From: a virus
Virus record (IMG/VR): IMGVR_UViG_3300025030_001854
Location: 62,001-126,000 of that record
Direction: 5' to 3' (one strand)
Length of the DNA: 64,000 bases
Shown: piece after piece, positions 1,536 to 37,574 of the stretch
Numbering within the stretch: the stretch's first letter is position 1
How the letters are laid out: every line of letters starts with the position of its first letter
Made by a program: the position numbers and the translations under genes
The notes under the pieces: model-generated
Told to the model about the DNA's origin: nothing
What the model saw: only the letters and a program-made list of their open reading frames with translations
Database searches by the model: none

Positions 1536-2942
1536 TTATTCTTGGTTTAACTTTTCTAGTTCGATAATGTAATCCAAAACGGCCTCAGAAAAACCGTCAA
1601 TATGGTTCCAAGCCCCATATCCGACACCATTTTGATAAGCGGCAACATTGATAATATACCCATTACTTCCTTTACGAGGATTTATTACCCTGTCATGAGA
1701 TTGTTCGTCTGTAAAAACAATCAAACGTTCGTATGGAATATTAGATACGTCACCTATGGCTTTCCCTAAATAAGTTCCAGAATGAGTCTGACTATTCTTA
1801 ATGGCGTCCCTCAAGGCAAATCCTCTACGAGAAGGAACTTGCACGGTTGCATTAGAGAAAGTAAAGACCTCTACATCTTTAAACATTTCTCTAGCAAGAA
1901 TAGCTAGTCCACTTGCCCCGTCGTCCCTTGTAGACTCGGACTTAGCACTCATAGGAGCATTCATAGAACCCGAAACGTCAATAAGAAGAACAGTTTTACC
2001 TGGAATCTTAGAGCCCTTGTCCTCTATAGAACGAAACATTGCCGCCTCAAGCTCTGGCTCAAGGTTTGGTGCGTATTTCGCAGCAGTAATAAAACGATAA
2101 GGAAGAACCCTATCTGTCTTCATACTTGCCAACGCACTTCGAACTAAGTCTTCGGAAACACCTGTTTCCTTAAAGTTACGAAGATTTCTCAAAAGAGCCA
2201 ATCCTCCCAACTTATTTTCGGCCAAAAGACGCTCCCAAGCTTCTTTCTTATTCTCTCCTTGAGAAGCAGAAAGTGAAACCTCCCACGTATCAGGTGTAGC
2301 CAACTTAGCTTCCACAAACTCGTGTTTCTTTTTACTGTGTTCCTTATTTGAATACCAACAGGTAGAACAAAAACCACCAATTAACTTCTTCCAAAGCTTT
2401 TCTTGGTCTTTATCCTTGGGTTTGGCATGACAAAGAAATAGAACGTCTCTCAAAGAGATAGCTGCCTCACGATTATATTTCGCGAGTTGATACTCATTAA
2501 ATTTTGTAAAAGCTGCCGCTAGACCCTTTTTAACTTGAGCAGACAAGGGTTGCTTTCCACCCTTCCAATAAATTGACAAAAATTCAGACAATTCATCTGG
2601 ACGTTGAATAATACTAGCCAATACATCACCGACATATTGGCGATGAGTCTTTAACGGAGCCATAGCTCGGGCAATTAAAAGGGGAACGTGACGAAGCTTT
2701 CCCTTTGTTCTTACTTCTTTAGCTAATTCAGCAACCTTGTTAGGTTTAACCTTCTCAACTAAGGAGCAAATTCTCTTCGCAATCTCTTCTCCTGACTCAT
2801 AGAATGAATCTTCCCACAACATTGTTGACAAGACAGACCGACGCAAAGACAACTCTGCCGAGGTTCTTGACGCAGGAGCGCCCTCATGGGTAACTAACGG
2901 GGTAACGGAAACGGTTGATACTGGAGCCTTATTTAACTTCAT
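1536..2942 (-). CDS. rsr: Ro60/TROVE-domain RNA-binding protein (Rsr-like)
   Basis: This 468-aa protein has the layout of bacterial Ro60 orthologues. An all-helical HEAT-like TROVE ring fills about the first 300 residues (RHVPLLIARAMA, YVGDVLASIIQRPDEL). A von Willebrand factor A domain follows, with an intact MIDAS motif D322-V-S-G-S. In known systems Ro60 binds Y RNAs and misfolded RNAs and, in bacteria, can tether PNPase for RNA decay or rRNA maturation. It is a single-gene unit with a strong promoter (3032-3060) and a terminator (1478-1514), so it is expressed independently of its neighbours. I found no convincing Y RNA beside it. Family assignment is firm; the role in this phage is inference. 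Confidence 0.93.
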   Translation of the reverse strand: MKLNKAPVSTVSVTPLVTHEGAPASRTSAELSLRRSVLSTMLWEDSFYESGEEIAKRICSLVEKVKPNKVAELAKEVRTKGKLRHVPLLIARAMAPLKTHRQYVGDVLASIIQRPDELSEFLSIYWKGGKQPLSAQVKKGLAAAFTKFNEYQLAKYNREAAISLRDVLFLCHAKPKDKDQEKLWKKLIGGFCSTCWYSNKEHSKKKHEFVEAKLATPDTWEVSLSASQGENKKEAWERLLAENKLGGLALLRNLRNFKETGVSEDLVRSALASMKTDRVLPYRFITAAKYAPNLEPELEAAMFRSIEDKGSKIPGKTVLLIDVSGSMNAPMSAKSESTRDDGASGLAILAREMFKDVEVFTFSNATVQVPSRRGFALRDAIKNSQTHSGTYLGKAIGDVSNIPYERLIVFTDEQSHDRVINPRKGSNGYIINVAAYQNGVGYGAWNHIDGFSEAVLDYIIELEKLNQE

Positions 2943-8537: not shown

Positions 8538-8559
8538 ACATAAAAAATATTTCAATTGA

Positions 8560-8942
8560 TGGACTCGGATGGAGTTGAACCATCGTCTTTAAAAAAATTC
8601 TCATTTGATGCTACAAGTTTATTTAATTATTAGTTCTTACTAAATACATAATTAACAAGAATCTTTAGTAATATTTAAATGATTTTTCCGTTCACATTTA
8701 AAACTGAACGTTTTTCCTCGCTGTTTCGACATATAAGATAGCGAGAATCTCTTAGATATCGGTATGACCATTAGTTAGGCCATAACAGTTTCGCGTTCAA
8801 GCGTGATAACACGCATAGAGGCGAGCTTTTTCACTAATTTGCTTTTGGCAGTTAATGTTTTGTCCGTTTATTTAAGTGGCCAACGAACGTCCACTACTTG
8901 CATCTAGTAACAATTTTATTAAATCGAAACCAGTACGAGCCC
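8560..8942 (-). ncRNA. ssrA: transfer-messenger RNA (tmRNA)
   Basis: This is a one-piece tmRNA gene of about 383 nt. The 5' end GGGCUCG pairs with CGAGUCC at the 3' end, including the G3-U pair recognised by alanyl-tRNA synthetase. It is followed by the conserved GGUUUCGA, and the T-arm is GAUGG-UUCAACU-CCAUC. The 3' CCA is not encoded (the flank reads A-UC). Pseudoknot PK1 is visible: AGUGG/CCACU, with the loop pairing GUUCGUU/AACGGAC. The stop codon of the tag lies in the loop of a 7-bp hairpin (UAUGGCC/GGUCAUA), as in helix 5 of bacterial tmRNAs. Further hairpins (CUCGCU/AGCGAG; GUUCA/UGAAC) follow. It should rescue stalled ribosomes and tag their products. Confidence 0.93.
8775..8849 (-). 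other. tmRNA proteolysis-tag reading frame (24 codons)
   Basis: The resume codon is GCC (Ala), about 12 bases after PK1, where the resume codon normally sits. The tag starts AKSKLVKKLA, passes SMRVITL and ends ERETVMA before UAA. It has 24 residues against about 10 in E. coli. Termination in the helix-5 loop supports this frame. A small hairpin (GCGUG-UUAU-CACGC) falls within the tag, which is unusual. The terminal VMA is a plausible protease-recognition end. Confidence 0.75.
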
Positions 8943-11789: not shown

Positions 11790-12242
11790 TTAAGGAAAAA
11801 GATATAAGTCGGCAAAAGATATTTGGGCGACATTAGCTATTTTTAATATTGTCGGGAGGATATCGCTATCTTTATTGTTTTGCCAAAATCCTCTCCAATA
11901 TTGTAGGGCAACAGTTTCTCTATGAGCCCTTTTACATGGACATCCAACCCCAACCATATCTCTTGTTTGTACAAGAGTATCTAATGCTGTCTTTTGGGCC
12001 TCTGTAAAGAGTTCTCTTTGTGGTAAATACCAATCTGAGAAATCCCATAGATTATAAAATATAAGCATTCCTTCTGTCACCTTTTTGGGTTCTGGGAAAA
12101 TTGGTTGTAAAAGAGAATTAAGTTCGTTTATAGATAATGGAACTGGTTCGTCATTAACTTTAATCTCTTCAATTATTTGAGCTGGTTGAGTTTTAATTGG
12201 AGAAAGTTGATTTTTTATCCGTTGTCCGACAAACTCATTCAT
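11790..12242 (-). CDS. hypothetical protein, 150 aa, with CPCKR motif
   Basis: The N-terminal 45 residues are Pro/Gln/Ile-rich and probably disordered. The remainder holds a VGVGCPCKRAHRETV segment followed by a Trp-rich helix. Two closely spaced Cys could bind metal or be redox active, but I recognise no family. It overlaps the membrane protein gene upstream by 8 bases. Confidence 0.55.
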   Translation of the reverse strand: MNEFVGQRIKNQLSPIKTQPAQIIEEIKVNDEPVPLSINELNSLLQPIFPEPKKVTEGMLIFYNLWDFSDWYLPQRELFTEAQKTALDTLVQTRDMVGVGCPCKRAHRETVALQYWRGFWQNNKDSDILPTILKIANVAQISFADLYLFP

Positions 12243-12582
12243 ATAGTTTTTTGATTATCCATCTAAAAAGGAAATACCCTAGTATTGATAATAATATATT
12301 TAAACCTAAAGTATAAAATGGTAAAAAAACTAATGATAAAATATTAATCCATACCCCAAAACAAATTGGACAATTTAACATTCGTGTTGGGAAACTGGGA
12401 AACTTATATTCTAAGAAGTCTGGATAACTTAATGGAGTCATACCCTTTTTACAATCTTCCTCATAAGGAGCATATTTTAAAAACTTTAGTCTAAATAACT
12501 TCGCCCACTCTATAAAAGCATTAGTATCAAACCAAATATATAAAACAACTATAATAAAAGATATCCCATAAATTAATTCCAT
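12235..12582 (-). CDS. DUF1360-like small membrane protein
   Basis: This 115-aa protein has an N-terminal transmembrane helix (about residues 3-18) and one or two more near the C-terminus (residues 80-108, INILSLVFLPFYTLGLNILLSILGYFLF). The motif LNCPICFGVWI just before the second hydrophobic region is typical of DUF1360-type phage membrane proteins. It is the first gene of the minus-strand block after the divergent intergenic region. An AAAGGG Shine-Dalgarno-like sequence precedes the ATG. Confidence 0.7.
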   Translation of the reverse strand: MELIYGISFIIVVLYIWFDTNAFIEWAKLFRLKFLKYAPYEEDCKKGMTPLSYPDFLEYKFPSFPTRMLNCPICFGVWINILSLVFLPFYTLGLNILLSILGYFLFRWIIKKLYE

Positions 12583-12797: not shown

Positions 12798-13279
12798 TAT
12801 ATATTTTAAAAAATATATTCTTTTAGCAGCTATGAACTATGTATGAACAAAAGGCGAAAATCCTTTTCAGCCCGCCGAGAAGACAACGGAAGGGTTTTCC
12901 CAAGTTGCCCTACCAAACTGGAGGGGAAAAGTAATAACTAGGCCGCAGTTGGCACCCGGCGGCGACAAAGCTGAAGCCAATCAGACGCAATAAGGGACAG
13001 GCACCATTCATTGATGGTAAAAAAAGAGGCTATCTTAATAAGATAGAAGTTGACAGGAATCCGCTAGACCTGAAAAGGTGAAATCGGAAGTATAAATGAG
13101 TTCTAGGCTCTCTCTCATCACCAATATTTATATTGGTAGCTTCTGGAAGCCGAAAGGCTATAAATCTCAATGCACTCTTCGCAAACTCCCGGCGAATTCA
13201 AAAAATATAACGGGACTTCAAGAATAGAGTCATTATTTTCCCTCTAGAGTTTTTTAATAAACTCTCTAGGGGGAAATTT
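12798..13279 (+). ncRNA. putative large structured noncoding RNA, family not identified
   Basis: This stretch between divergent genes has no long reading frame but is clearly more GC-rich than the genome around it and is packed with hairpins. Examples are AAAAGG/CCTTTT near 12853, TTTTCCC/GGGGAAAA near 12895-12930, ACCAT/ATGGT near 13003, CTATCTT/AAGATAG near 13030, TCCG/CGGA enclosing ACCT-GAAA-AGGT near 13059-13088, CCAATA/TATTGG near 13121 and AGCC-GAAA-GGCT near 13148. Two GNRA tetraloops suggest tertiary packing. I could not match it to RNase P, group I or II introns, 6S or SRP RNA. A large ornate phage-associated class such as GOLLD or ROOL is possible but unverified. The strand is inferred from the promoter and 3' hairpin. 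Confidence 0.6.
13237..13276 (+). terminator. strong 3' hairpin of the large RNA (possible terminator)
   Basis: A 16-bp stem with one 2-base bulge (arms TTTCCCTCTAGAGTTT and AAACTCTCTAGGGGGAAA) closes the structured region. Only three T follow, so it may act as a 3' stabiliser as well as, or instead of, an intrinsic terminator. Confidence 0.55.
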
Positions 13280-13365
13280 CACCCGGTATATTTGCTTAAG
13301 AATTCATCATTAAGAGTCTACAAAAGAATTACGTTTAAAACTTTAATAAGACCATTCGTGAATAT

Positions 13366-13394
13366 TTTACCCACTTCTACCGTCAAACTTTTAT
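13366..13394 (+). promoter_or_regulatory. weak candidate promoter for the dATP/dGTP hydrolase gene
   Basis: TTTACC (13366-13371), 17 bases, then TTTTAT (13389-13394). If used, transcription would begin close to the in-frame ATG at 13402, the fourth codon of the annotated gene. Both boxes are poor matches, so this is tentative. Confidence 0.25.
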
Positions 13395-13815
13395 GGAAAT
13401 TATGGAAAACGAAGTCATGGCTGATATTGTAAAACGTCCTATAATTAAAGATTCAGGACAACGGGAAGATTTCTCAACTGGTTCAAAAAGAGACACCCGA
13501 AACGGTAAAGGGAGATTCGATTTACTTCCTTTGTTCGCTGAGGAAGAATTGGCTAAACATTTTGAGGCTGGGGCCGTAAAGTATGGAGACAATAATTGGC
13601 TAAAGGGCCAACCTTTATCCAGGTATTTAGATTCAGCTCGTAGACATTTAAATAAAGCCGCTAGAGGCCAACGAGACGAACCTCATTTTACTGCTGCCGC
13701 TTGGAATATTATGTGTCTTATTGACACTATGAAAAGAATAGAACTTGGTCTTTTACCTGAAAGTTTAAATGACCTTTTACCAGTTTTACCAGAAGAAGTA
13801 GAAAAACTATTATGA
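13393..13815 (+). CDS. dATP/dGTP diphosphohydrolase-like protein
   Basis: The 140-aa protein contains the well-conserved run GRFDLLPLFAEEELAKHFE, then AGAVKYGDNNWLKG, PLSRYLDSARRHLNKA, and RDEPHFTAAAWNIMCLIDT. The Glu/His/Asp-bearing helices match the phage dATP/dGTP diphosphohydrolase N-terminal domain family, relatives of the MazG-like four-helix NTP pyrophosphatases. It probably trims the nucleotide pool. Starts at 13393, 13402 and 13417 are all ATG; the true one is uncertain. It overlaps the sigma-like gene by ATGA. Although related to MazZ of diaminopurine phages, no PurZ or DatZ is visible here. Confidence 0.8.
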   Translation: MEIMENEVMADIVKRPIIKDSGQREDFSTGSKRDTRNGKGRFDLLPLFAEEELAKHFEAGAVKYGDNNWLKGQPLSRYLDSARRHLNKAARGQRDEPHFTAAAWNIMCLIDTMKRIELGLLPESLNDLLPVLPEEVEKLL

Positions 13816-17046: not shown

Positions 17047-17885
17047 TGAAAACTCTACAGAATTGCGGAAAATTGATAGTTAAAGAATCCCCAATAGAAG
17101 GATTTGGGGTCTTTGCCACAGAAGACATTCAAAAAGGGACTATTCTTGAAGAAGTTCCTTTTGTTACCATTCCAAATTGGGCATCCTTTGGTAAAGCGTT
17201 ATATGATTTTTTATCAACATCTGAATGGATGGGTGATAAAGTAAAATATACAGAAAATTTAAGAAAAAACTTGGGTTTTAAAGACCCAGAAAAATACTAT
17301 TTTAAATGGTTTCCCCAGCATCAATTAGATAAGAGTCAAATTTCTTATACAGTTCTTCCTTTAGGATTTGGATGTATTTATAATAGTTCTAATACCCAGA
17401 ACAACGCGGGTTGGGTTATTAAAGATAGTCTTTTTATATTTAAAGCAGAAAAGGATATTCAAAAAGATGAAGAGGTAAAAACGTTTTATGGATATTTTTT
17501 AAGTGAAAATGGAACAATATTTAATTGCGATAATGTATTTAATATTGGATTAGATATCATTAACGGAACTCTTAAATTAAAAATGTTTAGATTTAGTTCT
17601 ATTGAAGTTTTTGAGGCAAGTCGGGTCCATCCAACATATATTCGTGGTCAAAAAATGTTAGCAGATTCTAAAGACGGACTTTCAATTAAAAAAATATCTT
17701 CGTCTAACTCTCCTACTGAAGACCAACAAGCAGTAGATGTTCCAGAAGTTGCTACACTACAGGATGTATATACAAGATTATCTGAATGTAAGAACCTTCC
17801 TAGAACTTTCTCTAGAATTCATATTGAATATACTAATAGAGAAGGAGAAATAGTTAAAGACGTTTTAGTATTTAAAAATTCTTGA
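17046..17885 (+). CDS. SET-domain protein (putative lysine methyltransferase)
   Basis: The first 170 or so residues follow the SET fold. ESPIEGFGVFATEDIQKGTILEE matches the opening strand-turn region. LPLGFGCIYNSSNTQNNAGW occupies the NHS-x-PN pseudoknot position (here NSS...NNA, so the His is lost). IFKAEKDIQKDEEVKTFYGYF matches the closing motif with its Tyr. The C-terminal 100 residues are distinct and end in a small domain. SET enzymes methylate protein lysines. Bacterial and phage members are scarce, and the target here is unknown. The HNH gene on the opposite strand overlaps its last 14 bases. Confidence 0.78.
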   Translation: MKTLQNCGKLIVKESPIEGFGVFATEDIQKGTILEEVPFVTIPNWASFGKALYDFLSTSEWMGDKVKYTENLRKNLGFKDPEKYYFKWFPQHQLDKSQISYTVLPLGFGCIYNSSNTQNNAGWVIKDSLFIFKAEKDIQKDEEVKTFYGYFLSENGTIFNCDNVFNIGLDIINGTLKLKMFRFSSIEVFEASRVHPTYIRGQKMLADSKDGLSIKKISSSNSPTEDQQAVDVPEVATLQDVYTRLSECKNLPRTFSRIHIEYTNREGEIVKDVLVFKNS

Positions 17886-18558
17886 TATCTTCGTGGTTTT
17901 TGTATTTGTATATTATTTCTATCCATTTAAAAAATTCTTTTTCATTCATATTCATTTTCATGGATTGTAAATCTTTGTGAATCCATTGTATATTATCTAA
18001 TTCATAACCCTTAGAGGAATCTATTCTATCTAAAGATGCAGTTTGGTTTTTGTAATTTTTATAATTAATTTCTAAATTTATCGGTTCTCCAGATAAAGCA
18101 CATTTTCCAAATTGTTTCTCAAACTGCTTCCAAGCATCTTTTATTGTTATATTGAAAGATAAATTTCGATGTTTCGCCCCACTTTTTACTCTCCAAAAAT
18201 AGCTTCCATTTATTTTCCCATATCTCGTTAATTTTAAACATCCACAACTTTTACATTCTCCATTTTTTAAATTTCTTAGTCTAACGATTTTAATGTTTCC
18301 ACAATCACAAAGACATTCCCATTTAGACATATTATCTACTGAATTTTTAACTCTTGATTTAATAATAAGTTTTCCGTATCGTAAACCTATATATTTTTTT
18401 AATGCTTCTTGAATATGCTCGTCACTGTTTCTAATTGGTATATTAAACTTTTTTAAATAATTTAATACCGTTGAATAACTTACTTTTAATTGAAAGGCAA
18501 TATTCTTGCTACTGAGTTTTTGATTAATATATAATTCGTATAATAAATTTTTATCCAT
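17872..18558 (-). CDS. free-standing HNH homing-type endonuclease
   Basis: The 228-aa protein has an N-terminal helix-turn-helix (KNIAFQLKVSYSTVLNYLKKF), a zinc ribbon (CLCDCGN ... CKSCGCL, about residues 85-113) and a C-terminal HNH-type nuclease core (CALSGEPINL ... ASLDRIDSSKGYELDNIQWIHKDL) with the D-R-I-D and N-I-Q-W-I-H motifs. It is the only minus-strand gene in a 36-kb plus-strand block, overlaps the SET gene's end by 14 bases, and has its own promoter. These are signs of a mobile intronless endonuclease that landed between co-directional genes. Confidence 0.88.
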   Translation of the reverse strand: MDKNLLYELYINQKLSSKNIAFQLKVSYSTVLNYLKKFNIPIRNSDEHIQEALKKYIGLRYGKLIIKSRVKNSVDNMSKWECLCDCGNIKIVRLRNLKNGECKSCGCLKLTRYGKINGSYFWRVKSGAKHRNLSFNITIKDAWKQFEKQFGKCALSGEPINLEINYKNYKNQTASLDRIDSSKGYELDNIQWIHKDLQSMKMNMNEKEFFKWIEIIYKYKNHEDIKNF

Positions 18559-20348: not shown

Positions 20349-21311
20349 ATGATTATTTTAATAACTGGCGGAGCTGGATATTTAGGAACTATCTTAATAG
20401 AAACACTATTAAATTATAGAAATATAGGATTAATAAGTTTTAAAAAAATAGTAGTTTACGACAATTTACTGTATAAACAAGATGGTATATTTCCATTATT
20501 GTCTGATTCTTCCGTAGAATTCGTATTGGGTGATGTTAGAGATTATACTAAACTTCAAGGATATATACAGGAAGCAGATTATATTATTCCTTTGGCGGCT
20601 ATAGTTGGAGCCCCTGCTTGTGATAATGACCCAAAACTTGCAGAAGAAATTAATTACAGACAACTCTATTATATTTCTCAAAATTGTCCTTATCACTCAA
20701 GAATCATTGTTCCAAATACTAATTCTGGATATGGGGCGACTAAAGATGGACAGCCCTGTTCCGAAAAAAGTCCTTTACGTCCATTATCGGTATATGGTGT
20801 TACTAAATGTAATGGAGAAAAAGCGGTTATGGAATCTGGACATGGATGTGCTTTTAGATTAGCTACTGTTTTTGGAACATCATATAGGTTTCGTAAAGAT
20901 TTATTAGTTAACGATTTTGTCTTAAAAGCGATGACTGATAAATATATTGTTTTATTTGAAAGTCATTTTAAAAGAAATTTTATTCACATAAGAGATGTGG
21001 CTCATGCTTTTATTCGGGCAATGATGAATTGGGATTTATTTAAAAATGAAGTTTTTAATCTTGGATTATCTTCTGCTAATTTGTCAAAATTAGAATTATG
21101 TGAAGCTATAAAAAAACACATTCCAGATTTTGTTATTAAACAAGATGATTTCGCTAAAGATAAAGATAAAAGAAACTATATCGTCTCCAATAAGAAGCTT
21201 GAAAATGCCGGATGGACTGCTCTTAATAGCTTAGATGATGGTATTCAAGAACTTATAAAAGCTTATCCAGTATTAATAAATTCTGGTCTTACAACATATA
21301 CGAATTTATAA
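20349..21311 (+). CDS. extended SDR NAD-dependent sugar epimerase/dehydratase
   Basis: The 320-aa protein has an N-terminal NAD-binding motif TGGAGYLGT (residues 6-14), a GDVRD loop, PLAAIVG, the catalytic YGVTK motif (Y-x3-K) near residue 155, and IHIRDVAHAFIRAM near 215, all typical of extended SDRs of the UDP-glucose 4-epimerase/dehydratase group. The exact substrate is unknown. Its position directly after the RmlC-like gene suggests a keto-sugar reductase or epimerase. Confidence 0.85.
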   Translation: MIILITGGAGYLGTILIETLLNYRNIGLISFKKIVVYDNLLYKQDGIFPLLSDSSVEFVLGDVRDYTKLQGYIQEADYIIPLAAIVGAPACDNDPKLAEEINYRQLYYISQNCPYHSRIIVPNTNSGYGATKDGQPCSEKSPLRPLSVYGVTKCNGEKAVMESGHGCAFRLATVFGTSYRFRKDLLVNDFVLKAMTDKYIVLFESHFKRNFIHIRDVAHAFIRAMMNWDLFKNEVFNLGLSSANLSKLELCEAIKKHIPDFVIKQDDFAKDKDKRNYIVSNKKLENAGWTALNSLDDGIQELIKAYPVLINSGLTTYTNL

Positions 21312-21314
21312 AAT

Positions 21315-21938
21315 ATGATAACAAATTTAACAAAACAAAACCTCATAGATTTTGAGGAAGACATTGCTCAATGTTTTAATCAGAAGATGATTAAAGCTCC
21401 CATTCATCTTTATTCAAATAACGAAGAAGAAATGATTAACGTTTTTCAAGAAATTCGTCCTCAAGATTGGGTTTTTTCTGCTTGGCGAAGTCATTATCAA
21501 TGTTTATTAAAAGGAGTTCCCCCAGAACAATTAAAACAAGCTATTCTTGATGGAAAATCTATTTCTTTATCCTTTCCATCTTATAAGATATTCTGTTCTG
21601 CTATAGTTGGGGGCTCGGTTCCCATTGCTGTCGGAACAGCCCTAGCTATTAAAAGACAAGGATTAGATGAAAAAGTTTATTGTTTTGTGGGAGATATGAC
21701 TTCTGAGACAGGTATTATGTGGGAGAGCTTAAAATATAGTATTTCTTACGATTTACCTATTGTGTTTATTGTGGAAGATAATGGACTTTCTGTATGCACT
21801 GATACAAGAAAAACTTGGAATATGGAAATCCTTACTTTTGAATATCAGCTTCCAAAGTCTTCTAAAAAATACATAAGATATTATAAATACAAAAACAAAT
21901 GGCCACATGCCGGTTCTGGGTCACGAATTCAATTTTAA
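21315..21938 (+). CDS. TPP-dependent enzyme, alpha (TPP-binding) subunit
   Basis: The 207-aa protein resembles the E1-alpha/transketolase N-terminal type. It has SIVGGSVPIAVGTALAIK-like sequence near 95-110 (here AIVGGSVPIAVGTALAIK) and the TPP motif GDMTSETG...VEDNG near 125-158, which binds thiamine diphosphate through Mg. It is shorter than typical E1-alpha (about 320-370 aa). Its presumed partner, the pyrimidine-binding subunit, is the gene at 22710, separated by one glycosyltransferase. Split TPP enzymes in sugar clusters can carry out decarboxylation or two-carbon transfer onto keto sugars; the reaction here is inferred. Confidence 0.75.
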   Translation: MITNLTKQNLIDFEEDIAQCFNQKMIKAPIHLYSNNEEEMINVFQEIRPQDWVFSAWRSHYQCLLKGVPPEQLKQAILDGKSISLSFPSYKIFCSAIVGGSVPIAVGTALAIKRQGLDEKVYCFVGDMTSETGIMWESLKYSISYDLPIVFIVEDNGLSVCTDTRKTWNMEILTFEYQLPKSSKKYIRYYKYKNKWPHAGSGSRIQF

Positions 21939-22708
21939 TGAAAACTTCATATATTTTAGCAACTAACAAAGACTTGGGATTTAGTCAAGATACAATTATT
22001 TCTATTTTATCGTTACCAAAACACGATATGGAACTAATAGTCTGTTGTCCACAATCGTCTATACATCCACAACACGAAGATTTTTTAAAACGATATAATA
22101 TAAAAATAATTATAGACAAAGAATGTTCTGGAAGCATTTTCGCATTTAATTACGCATATTCGTTTACTGATGGAGATTATATAGCTATGATGATAGAAGA
22201 TATAATCCTTCCTCCTAATTATTTAGATATGCAAGCTTGGATGGAATCGGATTTTATGAAACAAAAACGTTTCAAAATATCTAATACATTATGGGATGCT
22301 GGCCCTGGATTATTAATGTATGGACATCATGACCCAAACGCCATTGATGGAGACGAAAGATTTAGATGGCCAATTACTGCTCCACATTTATGTATTAATC
22401 CTGCTTATACTCCATATGCTGTAATTCCTCTTCCATTTTTTTTAAGAGAAACTGTTGAGAAAGAACTCCAAGGATATCTTTTTCATCCCAAAATTAAACA
22501 TCATTTTCCAGACCATTGGTTAGGATTTTTTATATCTAAACAAGAACCATTCGAACCATTTAAATGGAGATGCCCAACGGTTCAATATCAAGTAAATACT
22601 AAATACTCTTTTCCTTATGATTGGTCAACTAATAACTATGACATGAAAATTGTCGCCCAGCTAGCAGAAGACTTTATGGCAGGACAACAACTTTACGTCA
22701 ATCCTTAA
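21938..22708 (+). CDS. GT-A-like glycosyltransferase
   Basis: The 256-aa protein starts MKTSYILATNKDLG at an ATG that overlaps the stop of the previous gene (TAATG). IISILSLPKHDMELIVCCP, SGSIFAFNYAYSFTDGDYIA and MMIEDIILPPNYLDMQ outline a GT2-type nucleotide-diphospho-sugar domain with an acidic ED pair in the metal-site position. It interrupts the two subunits of the TPP enzyme, implying all three are co-expressed. Confidence 0.68.
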   Translation: MKTSYILATNKDLGFSQDTIISILSLPKHDMELIVCCPQSSIHPQHEDFLKRYNIKIIIDKECSGSIFAFNYAYSFTDGDYIAMMIEDIILPPNYLDMQAWMESDFMKQKRFKISNTLWDAGPGLLMYGHHDPNAIDGDERFRWPITAPHLCINPAYTPYAVIPLPFFLRETVEKELQGYLFHPKIKHHFPDHWLGFFISKQEPFEPFKWRCPTVQYQVNTKYSFPYDWSTNNYDMKIVAQLAEDFMAGQQLYVNP

Positions 22709-22709
22709 T

Positions 22710-23240
22710 ATGAGATATTTCAACGAATTAAAAAAATCAATGGAGTTTTTAGCCGATAACCCAAAAACCATATTTTTGGGGCAGGCTGTTATTTATGCTG
22801 GAACTGCGATAAGTAACACATTAAAAGATATTCCTGAATATAAACGAATAGAATTTCCGGTAAATGAAGAATTGCAAGCTGGTGTTTCTAATGGTTTAGC
22901 TTTAGCCGGACTTATTCCTGTTAGTATATTTCCAAGATGGAATTTCCTACTTCTTGCCACAAATCAAATAGTCAATCATCTTGATAAATTTCCTATTTTT
23001 TCTGGATATAAAACCAAGGTTATTATAAGAACAAGTATTGGCTCTGAAAGACCATTACATCCTCAGTATCAACATGTTGGAGATTTTTCAGATGCCTTTA
23101 GATTAATGTGTCCTAACATTGAGGTTATTCGATTAGATGAACCAGAACAGATATTTCTATCATATAAAAAGGCTCTAGAAAGAGAAGACGGAAAATCTAC
23201 TATTTTAGTAGAATATGGAGATTTTTATAATGAAAAATAA
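22710..23240 (+). CDS. TPP-dependent enzyme, beta (pyrimidine-binding) subunit
   Basis: The 176-aa protein matches the transketolase pyrimidine-binding domain or E1-beta N-terminal half. EFPVNEELQAGVSNGLALAG includes the catalytic Glu that activates TPP, and RTSIGSERPLHPQYQHVGDFSDAFRL lies near 110-135. The usual C-terminal domain of E1-beta is largely absent. It would form the active site together with the product of the gene at 21315. Confidence 0.75.
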   Translation: MRYFNELKKSMEFLADNPKTIFLGQAVIYAGTAISNTLKDIPEYKRIEFPVNEELQAGVSNGLALAGLIPVSIFPRWNFLLLATNQIVNHLDKFPIFSGYKTKVIIRTSIGSERPLHPQYQHVGDFSDAFRLMCPNIEVIRLDEPEQIFLSYKKALEREDGKSTILVEYGDFYNEK

Positions 23241-24180
23241 TGTCTTATTTGTAACCGAAAAATGGGCCGATGGTAATCCTAATTTTGGATTTACTCATAC
23301 AATGACTGATATTTTTAATACATTCAGTCAAACCCAAAGAAACTATAATTTTAACACCCTTCATATTGACGAAGCTGGAGTTGTTTTTGGAAAGCATGTA
23401 GATGATATCCTTCCTCGCTATTGCCTTAGTTGGGATATAAAAATAGTTATTGTTTCTCTTTTGGGGAACTCCCCAATGAATCCTTCTCTGGAATGCTTTC
23501 AAAAACTTAAACAATTAGGAATTTTTATTTGCTTCTTATGGTGCGATAGTAACCCAAATGATTTGGCTCTCATTAATTATTTAAGACCAATTACAGACAT
23601 TAATGTTTTCATGGATGCTTCTTATATTCCCGAAAGAAAATATGAAGAAAACGATTTAGTATTATGGACCCCGCTTGATTCAAATCTTTTTTATCCAGAT
23701 GATAAAACTAGAGAAGTCTCATTCGTAGGACGCCTTTATCCATACAGAGAGGCATCAATGTCTATGCTTTCAGAAGTTTATCCTAAAGCTATAGTGAAAA
23801 GTGGGCAAAGAGAACATCGTTTGTCTTTCGAGGAATACGCCCAAATCACTAGAGAATCGCAAATAATAGTAAATTTTTCATATCACCCACTTGGTTATCA
23901 CCAAGTAAAAGGAAGAGTATTTGAGGCCACAGCTAGTAATTGTTTACTATTAGAGTCAGATAATCCAGCAACCGAAAAATTATTCATTCCCAATAAAGAA
24001 TATGTTCCATTTATTTCCCCTAAAGATTTATTAGATAAAGTCAATTACTATTTAGAGAACGAGGAGGAAAGATTAAAGATAGCTCAATCGGGACATGAAG
24101 CTTATCAACAGCGTTTTAACATTACAATTTTTTGGAATAAAATAATGTCTCGCGCAGAATCATATTTAAACAATGACTAA
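23230..24180 (+). CDS. GT-B glycosyltransferase (CgeB/Glyco_trans_1_2 type), copy 1
   Basis: The 316-aa protein opens NVLFVTEKWADGNPNFGF. Its C-terminal half is typical of the group: VSFVGRLYPYREASMS, RLSFEEYAQITRESQIIVNFS, GRVFEATASNCLLLESDN, and a final PKDLLDKVNYYLENEEERLKI. These features predict a retaining-type glycosyltransferase. It is a tandem paralogue of the next gene (both start with KW-DGNP and share the SL-GNS--NPS segment). The start at 23230 is chosen over the ATG five codons earlier. Confidence 0.78.
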   Translation: MKNNVLFVTEKWADGNPNFGFTHTMTDIFNTFSQTQRNYNFNTLHIDEAGVVFGKHVDDILPRYCLSWDIKIVIVSLLGNSPMNPSLECFQKLKQLGIFICFLWCDSNPNDLALINYLRPITDINVFMDASYIPERKYEENDLVLWTPLDSNLFYPDDKTREVSFVGRLYPYREASMSMLSEVYPKAIVKSGQREHRLSFEEYAQITRESQIIVNFSYHPLGYHQVKGRVFEATASNCLLLESDNPATEKLFIPNKEYVPFISPKDLLDKVNYYLENEEERLKIAQSGHEAYQQRFNITIFWNKIMSRAESYLNND

Positions 24181-25135
24181 AGTTTTAATGTTAAGTGCTA
24201 AATGGTGCGACGGAAATCCTAGCTTAGGACTTTCAAATGATTTTCATAATGTATTTAATAGTTTTAGACAGAGTTTTTCAGAAATTCAATATGATATTTT
24301 ATTTTATGATGAATGCTTAATTACATATTCTTCTCATATAAATGATATACTATTGAACTATTGTGAAAAAAATAACGTCACCACCATAATTGTTTCGTTG
24401 ATGGGTAACAGTCATTTAAATCCGTCTATTGAGTTATTAGCTCAACTTAAAAATCTTGGATATAAAGTATGCATTATTTGGCCCGACACGGGTCCAACTT
24501 GGGGTATGCAAACGATGGCAGCTATTGGGGAAAAAGTTAGTCTTCATGTTTCTTGGGATAATCCTCGCTCTCAGTTTCATGATAATACACCTAGAGTTAG
24601 TAATTATTTAAATTTGTGGACTCCAGAAGACAATACTCTATTTAGATTTTTAGATTTTGACAAGAAAGATATTGATGTAAGTTTTCTTGGAAGCACAGAT
24701 AAATATCACGATAGATTATTTTTCTTGAATCATCTGAAAAAGTTTGCTAACATTTATATTAGCGGTGGACAGAGAGATAAACGTCTTTCTCCAGAACAAT
24801 ACGCTGATATTACACGAAGAAGCAAAATAGGAATTAATTTTGCTCTTAGCCAAACAGGGGTATTTTGGCAAGCAAAAGGCCGAATATTCGAATATACTAT
24901 GAGCGGAGCTTTATTATTAGATTTAGCCAATCCATCAACAAAAGATTTTTTTACTCCAGGTGAAGATTTTATAGAATTTGTGAATATTGAAGATTTAATT
25001 AACAAAATCTCCTATTATCTTAATAATAAAGATGATAGAGAAAAGATAGCTCTGCAAGGACATAAAACTTGTTTATCTAAATACTCTTCTTATAAATATT
25101 GGGAGGCGATATTAAAGACAATGAATTCTATATGA
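24173..25135 (+). CDS. GT-B glycosyltransferase (CgeB type), copy 2
   Basis: The 320-aa protein is clearly homologous to its upstream neighbour across its length: SAKWCDGNPSLGL, IIVSLMGNSHLNPSIE, RLSPEQYADITRRSKIGINFA, GRIFEYTMSGALLLDLANP. The two genes overlap by 8 bases. Duplication followed by divergence suggests consecutive transfer steps with different acceptors. The gene ends in an ATGA overlap with the following SDR. Confidence 0.78.
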   Translation: MTKVLMLSAKWCDGNPSLGLSNDFHNVFNSFRQSFSEIQYDILFYDECLITYSSHINDILLNYCEKNNVTTIIVSLMGNSHLNPSIELLAQLKNLGYKVCIIWPDTGPTWGMQTMAAIGEKVSLHVSWDNPRSQFHDNTPRVSNYLNLWTPEDNTLFRFLDFDKKDIDVSFLGSTDKYHDRLFFLNHLKKFANIYISGGQRDKRLSPEQYADITRRSKIGINFALSQTGVFWQAKGRIFEYTMSGALLLDLANPSTKDFFTPGEDFIEFVNIEDLINKISYYLNNKDDREKIALQGHKTCLSKYSSYKYWEAILKTMNSI

Positions 25136-26094
25136 AAATTTTAATTACGGGTATTAATGGAAGTGCAGGTAGTTATCTTGGAGAATTTTTGGTAAATACT
25201 ACTAATCATCAAATATTTGGAACTGTTAGGAATCATAATGGACTATCTAATATTCAAAATATCAAAGATAAAGTTTCAATTATTTATGTTGATTTAATGG
25301 ATTTTCCCTCTTTGTTAAAAACTCTAGACAAGTATCGTCCAGATGTTATTTTTCATATTGCTTCTATGGCCAACGTAAGGAATTCTTTTGATTCTCCTTG
25401 TGTTGTTGTTAATAATAATGTTAATATCACTCTTCATATATTAGAAGCCGTTAGACTTTTAAAAGATAAGGATAATTATAATCCAATTATTCAACTATGT
25501 AGCACTTCTGAAGTATACGGAAATCCTAGTAAAGAATTTATTCCTATTGACGAAAATTGTCCACTTCTTCCAATTAATCCATATGCATCATCTAAATTGA
25601 TGCAAGATAGTCTTGGTTACGTTTATTTTCTTAATTTTAAATTAAATGTAATCAGAACAAGAATGTTCTCTTATTTCAATCCTCGACGACCAGATTTATT
25701 TGCTACTCATTTTGCCAGACAAATTATAGATGTTTCCAATGGTAAAAAAGAAACGGTTGAGCACGGAAATCTTTCTTCGATACGAACAATTATCGACCCA
25801 ATGGAAGCTGCTGAATGTTATTGGTTAATAACCTGTAACGGGAAAATTGGAGAGGTTTATAACATTGGTGGAATAGAACCAATTTCTGTTGGTGGAGTTT
25901 TAGAAGCATTAATTAAAAAATCTGGTAAAAATATACCAACAAAGCAAATCTCTGGTTTAATGCGTCCATCTGATATAGATAGACAAATTCCAAATATCCA
26001 CAAATTTCAAGCAGCGACCGGATGGACCCCCAAAAAAACATTAAGTCAAAGTATTAATGATTTTTGGATAGATGTAAATAATCTATATCGTTAA
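25132..26094 (+). CDS. GDP-mannose 4,6-dehydratase-like SDR
   Basis: The 320-aa protein has an N-terminal TGINGSAGSYL nucleotide-binding motif, YVDLMDFPSL, the FHIASMANVRNSF segment, STSEVYGNP, and the catalytic PYASSKLMQD (Y-x3-K). The overall order matches GDP-mannose dehydratase or GDP-4-keto-rhamnose reductase (Gmd/Rmd) relatives. A fuller Gmd is encoded at 37575, so this copy is more likely an Rmd-type reductase or an epimerase. The start at 25132 gives an ATGA overlap with the previous gene. Confidence 0.8.
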   Translation: MKILITGINGSAGSYLGEFLVNTTNHQIFGTVRNHNGLSNIQNIKDKVSIIYVDLMDFPSLLKTLDKYRPDVIFHIASMANVRNSFDSPCVVVNNNVNITLHILEAVRLLKDKDNYNPIIQLCSTSEVYGNPSKEFIPIDENCPLLPINPYASSKLMQDSLGYVYFLNFKLNVIRTRMFSYFNPRRPDLFATHFARQIIDVSNGKKETVEHGNLSSIRTIIDPMEAAECYWLITCNGKIGEVYNIGGIEPISVGGVLEALIKKSGKNIPTKQISGLMRPSDIDRQIPNIHKFQAATGWTPKKTLSQSINDFWIDVNNLYR

Positions 26095-26099
26095 TTCCA

Positions 26100-27884
26100 A
26101 TGAAAAAAATTAAAGTTTATTTTAATGAGTTTAACATTCCAACAGATAACACTGTTTATTTTCCCTATTCGTCAGGATTGTTATTAGCATATTGTCTTCA
26201 GGACGAAGATGTTAGACTTAATTTTGATTTTCAAGAATTTTTGTTTCGAAGGGAACCATTATTAAATATTTTATCTAGATATGAAAATCCAGATATAGCT
26301 TGTTTTTCATCATCAATTTGGAATCATCAGTTAAACTTGGCGGTTGCGAAAGAAATTAAAAATAGATTTCCTAATTGTCTAATTATCTTTGGTGGACCAC
26401 AAGTTCCATTAAACAGTAATTTTTATATTGAAAATCCCTTTATAGATATAGGAATATTTGGGGAGGGAGAAATTATATTCCGAGATTTATTAATTAAATA
26501 TTTAAAAAGGGAGAATAATTTTCCCCATCATATTACATTAAAGAATGATGTTACAACTAAAGAAATAGATGTTTTTCCGTCACCATATTCATTAGGACTA
26601 TTTGACCAATTAATTAAAGATAATCAAGATATTAAATTTAAAGCAATAGTAGAAACAAATCGTTCGTGTCCATTCTCTTGTGATTTTTGTTTTTGGGGAC
26701 AATCAGACTTAAATAAGAAGATTGTCTTCCATTCTCTTGAATATACAAAGCAAGAAGCCTTATGGCTTGCAAAAAATCAAGTAGAATATATCTTCTGTGC
26801 AGACGCAAATTTTGGAATGTATAAAAGAGATATTGATGTAGCCCAACTATTTTCAGATATTAAATTAGAATATGGATATCCAGATAAGTTTCGCGTTTGT
26901 TATGGGAAAAATACAACAGAAAATATATTTAATACAGCTTTAATATTATCTAAAGCTAATTTAGCTAAAACAGTAACGCTAGCGAAACAATCTAACGATA
27001 AATCTGTATTAGCCAATATTCATCGTTCGAATATTAATACTAAAACATTTAAACAATTACAAATAAAATATACAGAAGCGGGAATCCCTACTTATACCGA
27101 ATTAATATTAGGTCTTCCAGGAGAAACATATTCTTCATTTTTGTCTGGACTAGAAGAAACCCTAGAATCTGTTATTAATAATCAGGTATTTATTTATCAT
27201 TGTCAAGTTCTTCCAAATACAGCGATGGCAGAAAAAGATTATATTTCAAAATATGGTTTAAAAACTGTTAAAATCCCACTAGCGGAAGTTCATGGTAGTG
27301 TTCGAGATAATTCTATCGTTCAAGAATTTGAGGAAATAGTTATTGGAACTAATTCAATGTCCCAAGAAGAATGGAAAAAGTGTGCCGTTATTTCTTGGTT
27401 AGCTCAATCTTTATATGGGCTTAAAGCTGCCGAAGAAATTATTAATTTTCTTATTAAAGAATATAAAATCAAATTTACAGATTATTTTGAATTTATCTCT
27501 AAATGCGATATGGATGAAGTAAAATTATTATGGAGAGTAGCAAACGACATTACAGATGGGGAAAGGAGATGTCAACATGATGCTAGATTTGGGTCAATAT
27601 ATTATGACCCAGAAGAATTTGTTTTTTTATTGTTATGCTTAAATCCTAATAAATTCTTTCAAAAATTATTTCAAATAACTGTGGGATTTTTGATGTCTAA
27701 AGGTATAGACATAAAAAGTAAGTTTGCGGAGTTATTGACAGTTTTTTCTGTTCAACAAGATAATCTCCCTTCTCCTTACGATTATAGTTCTACTAAAGAG
27801 TTTGCTACCAAAGTAGTCTTACATGGAAGAAAAAGTAACTCAACTAAAAAACAAAGAAATCCAATAGGATTTCAATTAATATGA
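26100..27884 (+). CDS. B12-binding-domain radical SAM enzyme 1
   Basis: The 594-aa protein has an N-terminal cobalamin-binding-like Rossmann domain (about residues 1-140, with CLIIFGGPQVPLNSNF and GIFGEGEIIFRDLL). A radical SAM core follows, whose CxxxCxxC cluster is C190-PFS-C194-DF-C197. A long C-terminal domain completes it. Such enzymes methylate or rearrange unactivated carbons using SAM and cobalamin. In this island the target may be a sugar or an acyl group. It is coupled to the GT2-like gene downstream by ATGA. Confidence 0.87.
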   Translation: MKKIKVYFNEFNIPTDNTVYFPYSSGLLLAYCLQDEDVRLNFDFQEFLFRREPLLNILSRYENPDIACFSSSIWNHQLNLAVAKEIKNRFPNCLIIFGGPQVPLNSNFYIENPFIDIGIFGEGEIIFRDLLIKYLKRENNFPHHITLKNDVTTKEIDVFPSPYSLGLFDQLIKDNQDIKFKAIVETNRSCPFSCDFCFWGQSDLNKKIVFHSLEYTKQEALWLAKNQVEYIFCADANFGMYKRDIDVAQLFSDIKLEYGYPDKFRVCYGKNTTENIFNTALILSKANLAKTVTLAKQSNDKSVLANIHRSNINTKTFKQLQIKYTEAGIPTYTELILGLPGETYSSFLSGLEETLESVINNQVFIYHCQVLPNTAMAEKDYISKYGLKTVKIPLAEVHGSVRDNSIVQEFEEIVIGTNSMSQEEWKKCAVISWLAQSLYGLKAAEEIINFLIKEYKIKFTDYFEFISKCDMDEVKLLWRVANDITDGERRCQHDARFGSIYYDPEEFVFLLLCLNPNKFFQKLFQITVGFLMSKGIDIKSKFAELLTVFSVQQDNLPSPYDYSSTKEFATKVVLHGRKSNSTKKQRNPIGFQLI

Positions 27885-28717
27885 AAAGTCCAGACGTATC
27901 TATTATTTTACCGTCTATTCGCCCAGAAAATCTGATTAAATTTTATGAATCAGCTCAAAATGCTTGTCAGAGATATTCTTTTGAAATTATAATTCCTGGT
28001 CCATATCTAATTCCAGAAGAATTAATGAAAAAAGGAAATGTTGTATTTATTCATACTTACGCTAATCCAACTATTTGTTTTCAAATGGCGGCTCTTTTAG
28101 CTAGGGGGGAATTTATTTATAATACAACAGATGATGGATTATTACAACCCAATGTTATTGATATTGCTGTTGACCTTCATAGAGAAGCATTGACATTCAA
28201 AGATATGATAAATATGAGGTATGATGAAGGAGTATTAGACCCGATAACTCTTTTACCTTTAAAAGAAAATCATGAACATTTCTCTCCATATTATTGGATT
28301 GCCCATTCTCATGCTGATTTAAGATTACCGGGAATTCCCGTTAATTATAAATTATGTATGCATTTCTTTATTAAGAAGAACTATTTTCTTTGGCTTGGTG
28401 GATTTGATTGTAATTATGAATATAGCAATCATGCTTTACACGATTTAGCTTTTAGAGTTCAATCAGATGGAGGACAAATTGTAAGTCTTCCTGTGGTTGC
28501 TTTTTATTGTTCTCATCTTCCTGGCCAGCAGGGCGACCATGGACCAGTAAATGATGCTCAATTAGGACCAGACATTACAAGATTTAATTCTATCTACGGA
28601 AACTCAACCCTAGATATAAAACAAAGAATTAATTTAAATTATGACGATTGGAAGAATTTTCCTAATATATGGGAAAGAAGATTTGATAAAAATAATTTGT
28701 TAGTTAATAAAATATGA
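27881..28717 (+). CDS. GT2-like glycosyltransferase, copy 1
   Basis: The 278-aa protein begins DVSIILPSIRPENLIKFYES, the standard GT2 opening. It has ALLARGEFIYNTTDDG, with the DDG metal site near residue 86, WLGGFDCNYEYSNHALHDL and a distinctive HLPGQQGDHGP loop. It is paralogous to the gene at 30800, with which it shares the opening and the GDH-P loop. It probably transfers a sugar to a growing glycan. It is flanked on both sides by radical SAM genes with 4-base overlaps. Confidence 0.8.
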   Translation: MKSPDVSIILPSIRPENLIKFYESAQNACQRYSFEIIIPGPYLIPEELMKKGNVVFIHTYANPTICFQMAALLARGEFIYNTTDDGLLQPNVIDIAVDLHREALTFKDMINMRYDEGVLDPITLLPLKENHEHFSPYYWIAHSHADLRLPGIPVNYKLCMHFFIKKNYFLWLGGFDCNYEYSNHALHDLAFRVQSDGGQIVSLPVVAFYCSHLPGQQGDHGPVNDAQLGPDITRFNSIYGNSTLDIKQRINLNYDDWKNFPNIWERRFDKNNLLVNKI

Positions 28718-30222
28718 AAAACGATTTAGATATCCTACTTATTCATCCGAATTCTGCTAAAAGAGTCTATCAAGACCTTAGTAATAATTTTTCAGCTATA
28801 GAACCCCCAATTTGGGCGTTAATGATTGCTTCTTATCTTATAAATAAAGGGTGGAATGTAGAAATACTCGACTGCGAAGCTTTAAGGTTAAATCCAAAAG
28901 AAGTATATACAATCGTTAAAAATAAATCTCCAAAAGTAATTGGTATGGTTGTTTATGGGCAACAGCCATCAGCCTCGACACAAAATATGACAGGGGCAAT
29001 CGACATTATGCATAAATTGGCTGATTTAGATATTACTCGTATCTATATTGGTCCGCACCCCTCTTCGTTACCGATAAGAACTATAGAAGACGACCCAGGA
29101 GCATTGGTTTGTCAGGGGGAAGGTCCAATTACATTGGATATATTATTAAAACAAAAAAATCACAAAGATATTAGCGATAGGAAAAAAGTTCCTGGATTGT
29201 GGTATTTTAATTATATTTCTGGAAAGATAGAGGGAAATTGCTCTGCTCCTTTATTACGAGACTTAGATAATGATATTCCGAATTTGCCTCTTGACCTTCT
29301 TCCTTTAGAACAGTATAGAACTTCTAATTGGCATAGTTGGACTAATGAAAATAAAACTCAACCATTTTTATCTTTATATACCAGTTTGGGATGTCCTTTT
29401 CAGTGTTCTTTTTGTATGATTAATTCTCCATTTAATAATGGGGATAATAAAAATAATACTTTCCGCACTTGGTCGCCCGCTCATACATTAAGGATTTTAA
29501 GGGGTTTTACTGATAAGGGGGTTACTAATGTTAAAATAGCTGATGAAATGTTTGTCTTAAAACCACCCCATTTTCTTGAAATTTGTAAGGGTGTTATTGA
29601 TAGCGGGATGAAATTTAATTTTTGGGCTTACGCAAGAATAGACACCGTAAGAGAACAATATTTAGATATTCTTAAAAAAGCTGGAGTAAATTGGCTAGCA
29701 CTAGGTATTGAATCTGGTAATATTAAAGTAAGGCAAGAAGTCATTAAGGGTAAATTTCAAGAATTAAATATTCATGATATTGTTTCTAAAATTCAAAATC
29801 ATGGAATTTGTTCTATGAATAATTTTATATTTGGGTTACCAACAGACACCATTGAAACAATGCAATCAACGTTAGATTTAGCTATGAACTTAAATGGCGA
29901 ATATGCTAATATGTATTGTGCTATGGGTTATCCTGGAAGTCAATTACACAGAGATTTTTCTCAACATAATCCATCTGTTTTACCAGAAAACAATGGCGTC
30001 GGATGGATAGGATATTCTCAACACGCTTACGAAACGTTTAATCTTCCGACAGAAGTATTAAAAAATCATGAAATTCTTAAATTTCGTGACGAAGCGGTAA
30101 TTAAATATTTTAGTAACCCATCTTATTTGGAAAAAATGACATTAAAATTTGGACCTAATTTTAAAACAGAAATACAAAACATGTTAAATATTAGATTAAA
30201 AAGAAAAATATTAGGAGACTAA
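28714..30222 (+). CDS. B12-binding-domain radical SAM enzyme 2
   Basis: The 502-aa protein has a B12-binding-like N-terminus (LLIHPNSAKRVYQDL ... IYIGPHPSSLPIRTIED ... VCQGEGPITLDILL). A radical SAM domain has the cluster C227-PFQ-C231-SF-C234, GVNWLALGIESGNIKVRQEV and NNFIFGLPTDTIETM. It belongs to the same broad class as the enzyme at 26100 but is not a close duplicate. Cobalamin use links it with the class II ribonucleotide reductase of this genome. Confidence 0.88.
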   Translation: MKNDLDILLIHPNSAKRVYQDLSNNFSAIEPPIWALMIASYLINKGWNVEILDCEALRLNPKEVYTIVKNKSPKVIGMVVYGQQPSASTQNMTGAIDIMHKLADLDITRIYIGPHPSSLPIRTIEDDPGALVCQGEGPITLDILLKQKNHKDISDRKKVPGLWYFNYISGKIEGNCSAPLLRDLDNDIPNLPLDLLPLEQYRTSNWHSWTNENKTQPFLSLYTSLGCPFQCSFCMINSPFNNGDNKNNTFRTWSPAHTLRILRGFTDKGVTNVKIADEMFVLKPPHFLEICKGVIDSGMKFNFWAYARIDTVREQYLDILKKAGVNWLALGIESGNIKVRQEVIKGKFQELNIHDIVSKIQNHGICSMNNFIFGLPTDTIETMQSTLDLAMNLNGEYANMYCAMGYPGSQLHRDFSQHNPSVLPENNGVGWIGYSQHAYETFNLPTEVLKNHEILKFRDEAVIKYFSNPSYLEKMTLKFGPNFKTEIQNMLNIRLKRKILGD

Positions 30223-30224
30223 TT

Positions 30225-30803
30225 ATGTCAGAACTTATCAAATTACATTTGGGGTGTTACCATCGGAAAATACATGGATATATTAACATAGATATCCGTC
30301 CAGAATGCTCTCCAGACCTAGTAGAAGACTGCTTCCTATTATCTTCGTTTAAAAATAATAGTGTTGATGTTATTTATACTTGTCATATGCTTGAACATTG
30401 CAAAAGAGACGAAGTTCTTCCAATATTAATCCGCTGGAATGAGATATTAAAACCAGGTGGTATTTTAAGGATTTCTGTCCCAGATTTTGAGGCTTTGTGT
30501 GAATATTATATTCAAACAAGAGATTTAGAAGCCATTACAAATTTAATGTTTGGTTCCCAAAAACATGCTTATGATTTTCATTATATTGGTTTTAATGAAA
30601 AGTATTTAACTAGTTTATTAAAAGGATTAGATTTCGTAAATATCCATCGTTATGATTGGAGGGAAACAGAACATTTTTATATTGATGATTACTCTCAATG
30701 TTATTTGCCAAGTATTGAATATAAATCTAGAAGACTAACTGATGAAATAAAAGGAAAACTAGTTAGTCTAAATATTGAAGCGGTAAAAGCTCTATCTATA
30801 TGA
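30225..30803 (+). CDS. class I SAM-dependent methyltransferase
   Basis: The 192-aa protein starts KLHLGCYHRKIHGYINIDI, the altered motif I of small methyltransferases found in glycan clusters. It has FKNNSVDVIYTCHMLEHCKRDE and EILKPGGILRISVPDFEAL, the methyltransf_11-type hallmarks. It may methylate a sugar or a radical SAM product. A good AGGAG ribosome-binding site precedes it, which is unusual in this island. Confidence 0.82.
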   Translation: MSELIKLHLGCYHRKIHGYINIDIRPECSPDLVEDCFLLSSFKNNSVDVIYTCHMLEHCKRDEVLPILIRWNEILKPGGILRISVPDFEALCEYYIQTRDLEAITNLMFGSQKHAYDFHYIGFNEKYLTSLLKGLDFVNIHRYDWRETEHFYIDDYSQCYLPSIEYKSRRLTDEIKGKLVSLNIEAVKALSI

Positions 30804-31579: not shown

Positions 31580-31583
31580 AATT

Positions 31584-33941: not shown

Positions 33942-33953
33942 AAGATATGAAGT

Positions 33954-35494: not shown

Positions 35495-35495
35495 T

Positions 35496-36674: not shown

Positions 36675-36675
36675 T

Positions 36676-37422: not shown

Positions 37423-37425
37423 TAT

Positions 37426-37569
37426 ATGGATGGCTCAATATTTCGCGGATTCGAGGTTATTTATAAATTATTTGTAGTGCTATTGGTTGTTTTTGTTCCA
37501 TTAGGATTATGGAAAATGGTAGATATTATTATTTGGTTATTTAAACATTTATCAGTTAGTTTTCAATAA
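37426..37569 (+). CDS. small single-span membrane protein, 47 aa
   Basis: A short frame between the kinase and gmd genes encodes MDGSIFRGFEVIYK followed by a 17-residue hydrophobic stretch (LFVVLLVVFVPLGLW) and a second hydrophobic end. It fills the gap almost exactly. Function is unknown; it may anchor glycan enzymes. Confidence 0.55.
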   Translation: MDGSIFRGFEVIYKLFVVLLVVFVPLGLWKMVDIIIWLFKHLSVSFQ

Positions 37570-37574
37570 AATTT

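Follow-up and report, generated by a model that had tools for sequence, protein, structure and literature searches.

The window analysed here comprises 64,000 nucleotides (positions 62,001 to 126,000) of the 136,838-base IMG/VR virus record IMGVR_UViG_3300025030_001854, which belongs to a large uncultivated phage. Between two divergent gene blocks it carries what is, judged by comparative analysis, a real structured RNA of a previously undescribed family. The proposed noncoding RNA (ncRNA), whose 5′ and 3′ ends we infer, was found in the window and in 27 other IMG/VR contigs, mostly within the same gene neighborhood. The predicted fold, made up of 5′ hairpins, a six-helix core, and an H-type pseudoknot closed by helix P14, is conserved while the sequence changes. 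Our preferred explanation, to which we assign a probability of roughly 55%, is an independent ncRNA gene of a large-phage family, most likely acting in trans in a complex with a protein or with itself.

Relatives and conservation of the fold

Predicted folding of the plus strand beat 100 of 100 shuffles (z −2.85), and folding of the minus strand was unremarkable (z −1.5). As folding alone is weak evidence, relatives were sought. Further phage contigs were collected via relatives of the DNA polymerase, and a BLAST search with the RNA matched three of them, in islands of 33–35 bases with 88–89% identity, all intergenic and beside a homologue of a membrane-like protein. Searching with this protein and reading the adjoining sequence yielded L143, L150, and L152, the last on the opposite strand. 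The covariance model R1, built from L036 alone, matched the window, L034, L035, L143, L150, and L152 with E values from 8.6e-18 to 2.2e-5 (window core, 4.9e-13), in each case in the expected intergenic region. Model R2 added L193 and L194, and two degenerate DNA patterns added 19 further contigs.

Covariation among the homologues was strong. From the 28 contigs, 26 full cores were aligned, 25 of them distinct (L227 hardly differs from L194, and the L240 copy is truncated), and double-sided changes occurred in 26 of the 29 core pairs. Standard pairing was found in 93.9% of cells, compared to 61% in shuffled and 37–50% in slid controls, and 230 cells showed a double-sided change, compared to 69.5 in shuffles. 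The covariation score was 0.815 versus 0.230 and was reached by no shuffle. Because the sequences had been aligned so as to fit the structure, six sequences outside model building were counted as well; 93.9% of their cells were paired, with 14 double-sided pairs versus 5.3 in shuffles. The elements of the fold are summarized in Table 1.

Table 1. Predicted elements of the RNA and its downstream copy, with positions in the window
Feature	Position	Strand	Observation
Proposed ncRNA, P1 to end of H	12845–13277	+	about 430 nucleotides; homologous element in 28 contigs
P1, 5′ hairpin AAAAGG/CCUUUU	12849–12867	+	covaries
P3, hairpin CCG/CGG	12875–12889	+	covaries: CUG/CAG, ACG/CGU, UGCCG/CGGCA, CGGA/UCUG
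P4, hairpin GGG-UUUU-CCC	12892–12901	+	GUUUUC conserved; sequence kept in homologues, pairing less certain
P5	12904–12908 with 12987–12991	+	GUUGC/GCAAU, read by eye
P5a, inner	12971–12973 with 12982–12984	+	read by eye
Core (P6, P7, P9, P10, P11, P12)	12998–13146	+	covariance models R1–R3
P6, ACCAU/AUGGU	13003–13018	+	double-sided change in 5/5 pairs
P7, hairpin	13030–13046	+	double-sided change in 6/6 pairs
P9, ACCU-GAAA-AGGU, GNRA loop	13068–13079	+	double-sided change in 4/4 pairs
P10, long-range helix closing P11 and P12	13086–13144	+	100% of cells paired; double-sided change in 4/5 pairs
P11	13096–13100 with 13114–13118	+	85.5% paired
P12	13120–13126 with 13131–13137	+	78.9% paired; weakest helix
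P15, AGCC-GAAA-GGCU, GNRA loop	13148–13159	+	homologues: hairpin in same place, other sequences
X, 5′ strand of P14	13169–13178	+	pairing with t1 exceeds permutations
P13, H-type pseudoknot, A-rich third loop	13178–13215	+	S1 13178–13182/13192–13196; S2 13187–13191/13211–13215
t1, CUUCAAGAA and variable tail	13216–13235	+	13226–13234 is the 3′ strand of P14
H, long hairpin	13237–13277	+	from folding; complete homologues have a long hairpin in the same place
t2, DNA copy of t1 (CTTAAGAATTCATCATTA), preceded by TATATTTGC	13295–13312	+	downstream of H

Outside the core, P1 recurs as AAAUGG/CCAUUU, AAAAGUG/CACUUUU, AAAGAGGG/CCCUCUUU, and AACU/AGUU; among the variant strings noted for P1, P3, and P15, those for P1 of L226 and P15 of L193 were not found exactly. 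The P5 region (12904–12991) holds an insertion specific to the window. Relatives show, by eye, GCUAU/AUAGC (L150) and GGCA/UGCC (L034) at P5. A helix P2 (UCAGC/GCUGA), considered at first, gave way to the nested pair P5/P5a, which suits more relatives. A pseudoknot of the P13 type was present in all 11 sequences checked, compared to 7–37% of the shuffles of each, in a test designed after the pattern had been seen.

The preliminary description of this DNA had placed a large unassigned structured RNA at 12798–13279. A structured RNA does lie there, on the plus strand, and its limits had to be redrawn to about 12845–13277. The AT palindrome at 12798–12818 probably lies outside the RNA; homologues start with P1, near position 12849. 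At the other end, the conserved element runs beyond 13279 to about 13312, the end of t2. Several of the features on which that proposal had been based were recovered. No open reading frame of at least 60 amino acids was found between the divergent genes starting at 12582 (minus strand) and 13393 (plus strand), the sole exception being a frame of 69 amino acids that lies within the downstream gene, on its opposite strand (13383–13592). The GC content of the interval is raised (0.40 compared to 0.26–0.38 in windows flanking it), both GNRA tetraloops are present (GAAA at 13072–13075 in P9 and at 13152–13155 in P15), and so is the strong 3′ hairpin, at about 13237–13277.

Searches beyond these contigs returned little. 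BLAST of the window RNA and three homologues against 50,697 named phage records gave nothing credible, degenerate patterns, which are narrow, had no match in GTDB genomes, and a search with alignment A10 recovered only loci already known. Among 48 records whose DNA polymerase is related, many of them fragments, most showed no match, and in G017, G018, and G048 the space next to the membrane gene is too small to hold the RNA. The locus L144 (G007:109800–111200), in the same place, had no model match and folded weakly, and was not counted as a member. It has the same flanking genes and about 560 intergenic bases of different sequence with hairpins, unmatched by Rfam, and could be either a distinct structured RNA or a copy that has diverged strongly.

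Tail t1, its partner X, and the downstream copy t2

After the pseudoknot, t1 begins with a conserved stretch ending in AAGAA, followed by a variable part. A scan for partners of t1 along the RNA gave one clear candidate, X (z −3.8), with a pairing reached in 1 of 20,000 permutations; this is the basis of the predicted helix P14.

A second version of the tail, t2, sits 55–81 nucleotides after t1, past hairpin H. Examples of t1/t2 are AAGAAACGGCATACAG/AAGAAACATCATACAG in L036, TCTAAGAAAAATGATTTGTATAAC/TCTAGAAAAATGTTATTGTATAAC in L237, and TCTAAGGAAAATG/TCTAGGAAAATG in L242. Judged from the sequences compared, t1 and t2 co-evolve: the summed score of each t1 against its own downstream region was 492, exceeding the permutation maximum of 412 (0 of 20,000 permutations), in a test inflated by kinship among the sequences. 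In clade A (window, L034, L036, L143, and L150), the matched arrangement ranked first among 120, or second when a longer comparison window was used. In clade B, the matched arrangement was not significant. No third copy was present in the four genomes examined.

A switch in which X:t2 would compete with X:t1 was rejected, as the pairing was not above permutations (about 0.22) and a windowed scan along the RNA revealed no partner of t2 that stands out. Since t2 has no clear partner there, it seems to be a sequence copy of t1 and not a competing strand. Additionally, clade A has a conserved TATWTTTGCTWAAG-like stretch right after H (13287–13300 in the window, and the homologous places). The window has a single occurrence of TTTGCTTAAG, which is therefore not a general phage promoter.

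Gene context and possible roles

In the window, the leftward block contains the large subunit of ribonucleotide reductase and two small proteins, one of them short and membrane-like (12235–12582), and the rightward block encodes a dATP/dGTP diphosphohydrolase-like protein, a sigma-factor-like protein, and proteins of 110 and 370 amino acids. In the loci compared, the gene block of the RNA includes dCMP deaminase, a winged-helix-like protein, a 140 amino acid protein, dNMP kinase, a sigma factor, and proteins of 110 and 340–370 amino acids; these names derive from resemblance to L226 and window proteins, and partly from our own reading. The gene after the RNA may be the dATP/dGTP diphosphohydrolase, the sigma factor, the dNMP kinase, or another gene, and in L237, L238, L242, and L243 it lies convergently on the opposite strand. 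In L152, the strand of the RNA is reversed, so that it points at the membrane gene. Thus, in the arrangements compared, the RNA is independent of any one neighboring gene.

A sigma-70-like promoter motif (TTGAC, 16–18 nucleotides, TA-rich hexamer; read by eye) was seen just 5′ of P1 in most relatives, among them L034, L036, L143, L150, L193, L194, L226, and L232. The RNA would then be a transcript of its own, starting at this promoter in most relatives and ending at H, which is probably its 3′ end or a terminator.

According to the preferred explanation, the RNA would serve as the core of an assembly, its partner being a phage or host protein or, in the manner of GOLLD and ROOL, the RNA itself. 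It may be active during takeover or replication, a role suggested by its place inside a block for nucleotide metabolism and sigma factors. The co-evolution of t2 with t1 suggests that the same factor may recognize the RNA tail t1 and either the adjacent DNA copy t2 or a read-through transcript, perhaps controlling the synthesis of the RNA itself or marking a site. Some points weigh against this explanation. The scan of the plus strand found neither a consensus promoter nor an intrinsic terminator for the window copy. The ends of this copy are uncertain because the scan consensus was not reached and no U-run follows H. Furthermore, the sequences in the structure-fitted core alignment are related to one another, and we infer the trans-acting role, the timing, and the protein partner from position.

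Several of the other explanations make use of the t1/t2 pair. A phage protein might bind t1 as RNA and t2 as DNA or mRNA, a case of mimicry and autoregulation in which the RNA would mainly be a titrating or regulatory decoy. The two short boxes shared by t1 and t2 (AAGAAA and a lineage-specific CAnA-type box, with a variable middle) suit such a protein, but there is no candidate for it, the t1–t2 spacing varies, and the elaborateness of the remaining RNA would be unexplained; we consider this decoy role unlikely. That t1 directs a protein to the t2 DNA, for self-targeted repression or cutting, would fit the near-identity of the co-evolving t1 and t2 over 16–24 nucleotides, the appearance of t2 as a copy lacking a partner in the RNA, and the position of the pseudoknot directly before t1. 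Such a guide is nevertheless very improbable, since t1 and t2 often disagree at 2–5 bases in the middle or by one indel, t1 forms one strand of helix P14, and it has no other genomic match in the four genomes examined. Moreover, of 24 RNA-bearing records, one has a TnpB-like effector gene and none has the reverse transcriptase that would accompany a retron or other reverse transcriptase-associated RNA. We are just as doubtful of a self-addressed RNA, in which near-identity of the t1 tail to t2 is maintained to let the RNA pair, by itself or together with a protein, with the DNA of its own locus and control replication or transcription there, guide-like and without Cas, TnpB, or reverse transcriptase. 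The RNA-bearing relative G061 (62371–62571) has a 497 amino acid TnpB/Cas12f-like reading frame.

An RNA-primed or R-loop replication origin, in which the structured body would allow the 3′ part of the RNA to hybridize with DNA near t2 and prime replication as ColE1 RNA II does, would account for the size, the own promoter, the independence of the downstream gene, the long hairpin with a conserved TTTGC stretch behind it, and the location of the RNA where gene directions diverge in the window. However, the GC skew around the RNA tracks gene direction, two of four genomes have no turning point there, and no RNA is detectable in the majority of records sharing that DNA polymerase, although these may be fragments; an origin appears rather improbable. 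The lowest probability is given to a cis-acting leader or riboswitch controlling transcription past H into the downstream operon. In the window, the RNA does lie ahead of the genes for the dATP/dGTP diphosphohydrolase and the sigma factor and points toward them, with a long hairpin at its 3′ end. Yet the RNA is not the leader of one gene, because the next gene changes and is convergent in four relatives, which largely refutes this idea; the reversed strand in L152 and promoter-like sequences seen by eye between t2 and the next gene in L226, L229, and L152 also speak against it.

Elsewhere, the window encodes a 468 amino acid TROVE-domain (Ro60-like) protein (1539–2942, minus strand; Pfam E 1.3e-19), a kind of protein that is, to our knowledge, rare in phages. 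A Ro60-bound Y RNA was dropped as a candidate for the RNA, the TROVE gene being found in G000 only and in none of the 24 other records searched. A 228 amino acid protein (17872–18558, minus strand) without a Pfam match resembles, by eye, an HNH homing endonuclease in its C-terminal half. A large cluster for sugar nucleotides and surface glycans (20349–38807, plus strand) includes two radical SAM/B12-binding proteins, epimerases, an aminotransferase, and an AMP-binding protein.

Comparison with known RNA families

At the gathering threshold, the interval was unmatched by Rfam, and E values up to 10 returned only chance matches. Specifically, the covariance models of GOLLD, ROOL, OLE, and raiA (GOLLD, ROOL, and OLE being described in Rfam 15) had no match in the window, even at E up to 10, and the homologues matched no family, relaxed thresholds included. 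The models for tmRNA, RNase P, 6S RNA, group I and II introns, and known riboswitches did not match the RNA either. The earlier impression of an RNA resembling no familiar class, and possibly a new one, was thus borne out by these searches together with the covariation.

The sole Rfam match in the whole window is a tmRNA (8557–8942, minus strand), whose predicted tag of 24 residues is unusually long; G006 and G009 also have tmRNAs with 24-residue tags. The RNA described here resembles tmRNA (RF00023) as a structured phage RNA with pseudoknots, and the same phage encodes both, but neither ARAGORN nor Rfam recognizes it as a tmRNA. With TnpB/Cas12-type guide RNAs it shares a pseudoknot followed by a short DNA-matching tail, but no effector gene is associated with it. 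ColE1 RNA II is a structured transcript of some 500 nucleotides that has a promoter to itself and forms a hairpin close to its 3′ end. The present RNA is alike in size, promoter motif, and hairpin; it differs in that GC skew lends no support to an origin, and origin activity of the ColE1 kind is only proposed.

GOLLD and ROOL form homo-oligomeric RNA complexes and are often located near tRNA islands. The window contains the tmRNA and no tRNA genes; tRNA genes lie within a few kilobases in L225 and L231, and not in others. GOLLD and ROOL are phage RNAs whose function is unknown; many GOLLD members exceed 800 nucleotides, and ROOL, which occurs in phages and prophages, is a large RNA with pseudoknots that has no described function and no known protein partner (PMC12286853). 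Like GOLLD, the RNA described here is phage-encoded, large, and ornate, but it is shorter, has another architecture and context, and does not match the model. Similarly, it is a large pseudoknotted phage RNA like ROOL, differing in that the Rfam model does not match and that its context in the window is nucleotide metabolism and a sigma factor, not a tRNA island.

We know of few large structured phage RNAs (GOLLD and ROOL), none with an established function. To these is added an unrelated family of 28 members with a covariation-supported fold, a fixed gene neighborhood, and a tail apparently co-evolving with an adjacent DNA copy, for which a ready covariance model is provided. As no Rfam family matches in sequence or structure, while GOLLD and ROOL are RNAs of a similar kind, the comparative data point to a family that is new but whose kind is already known.
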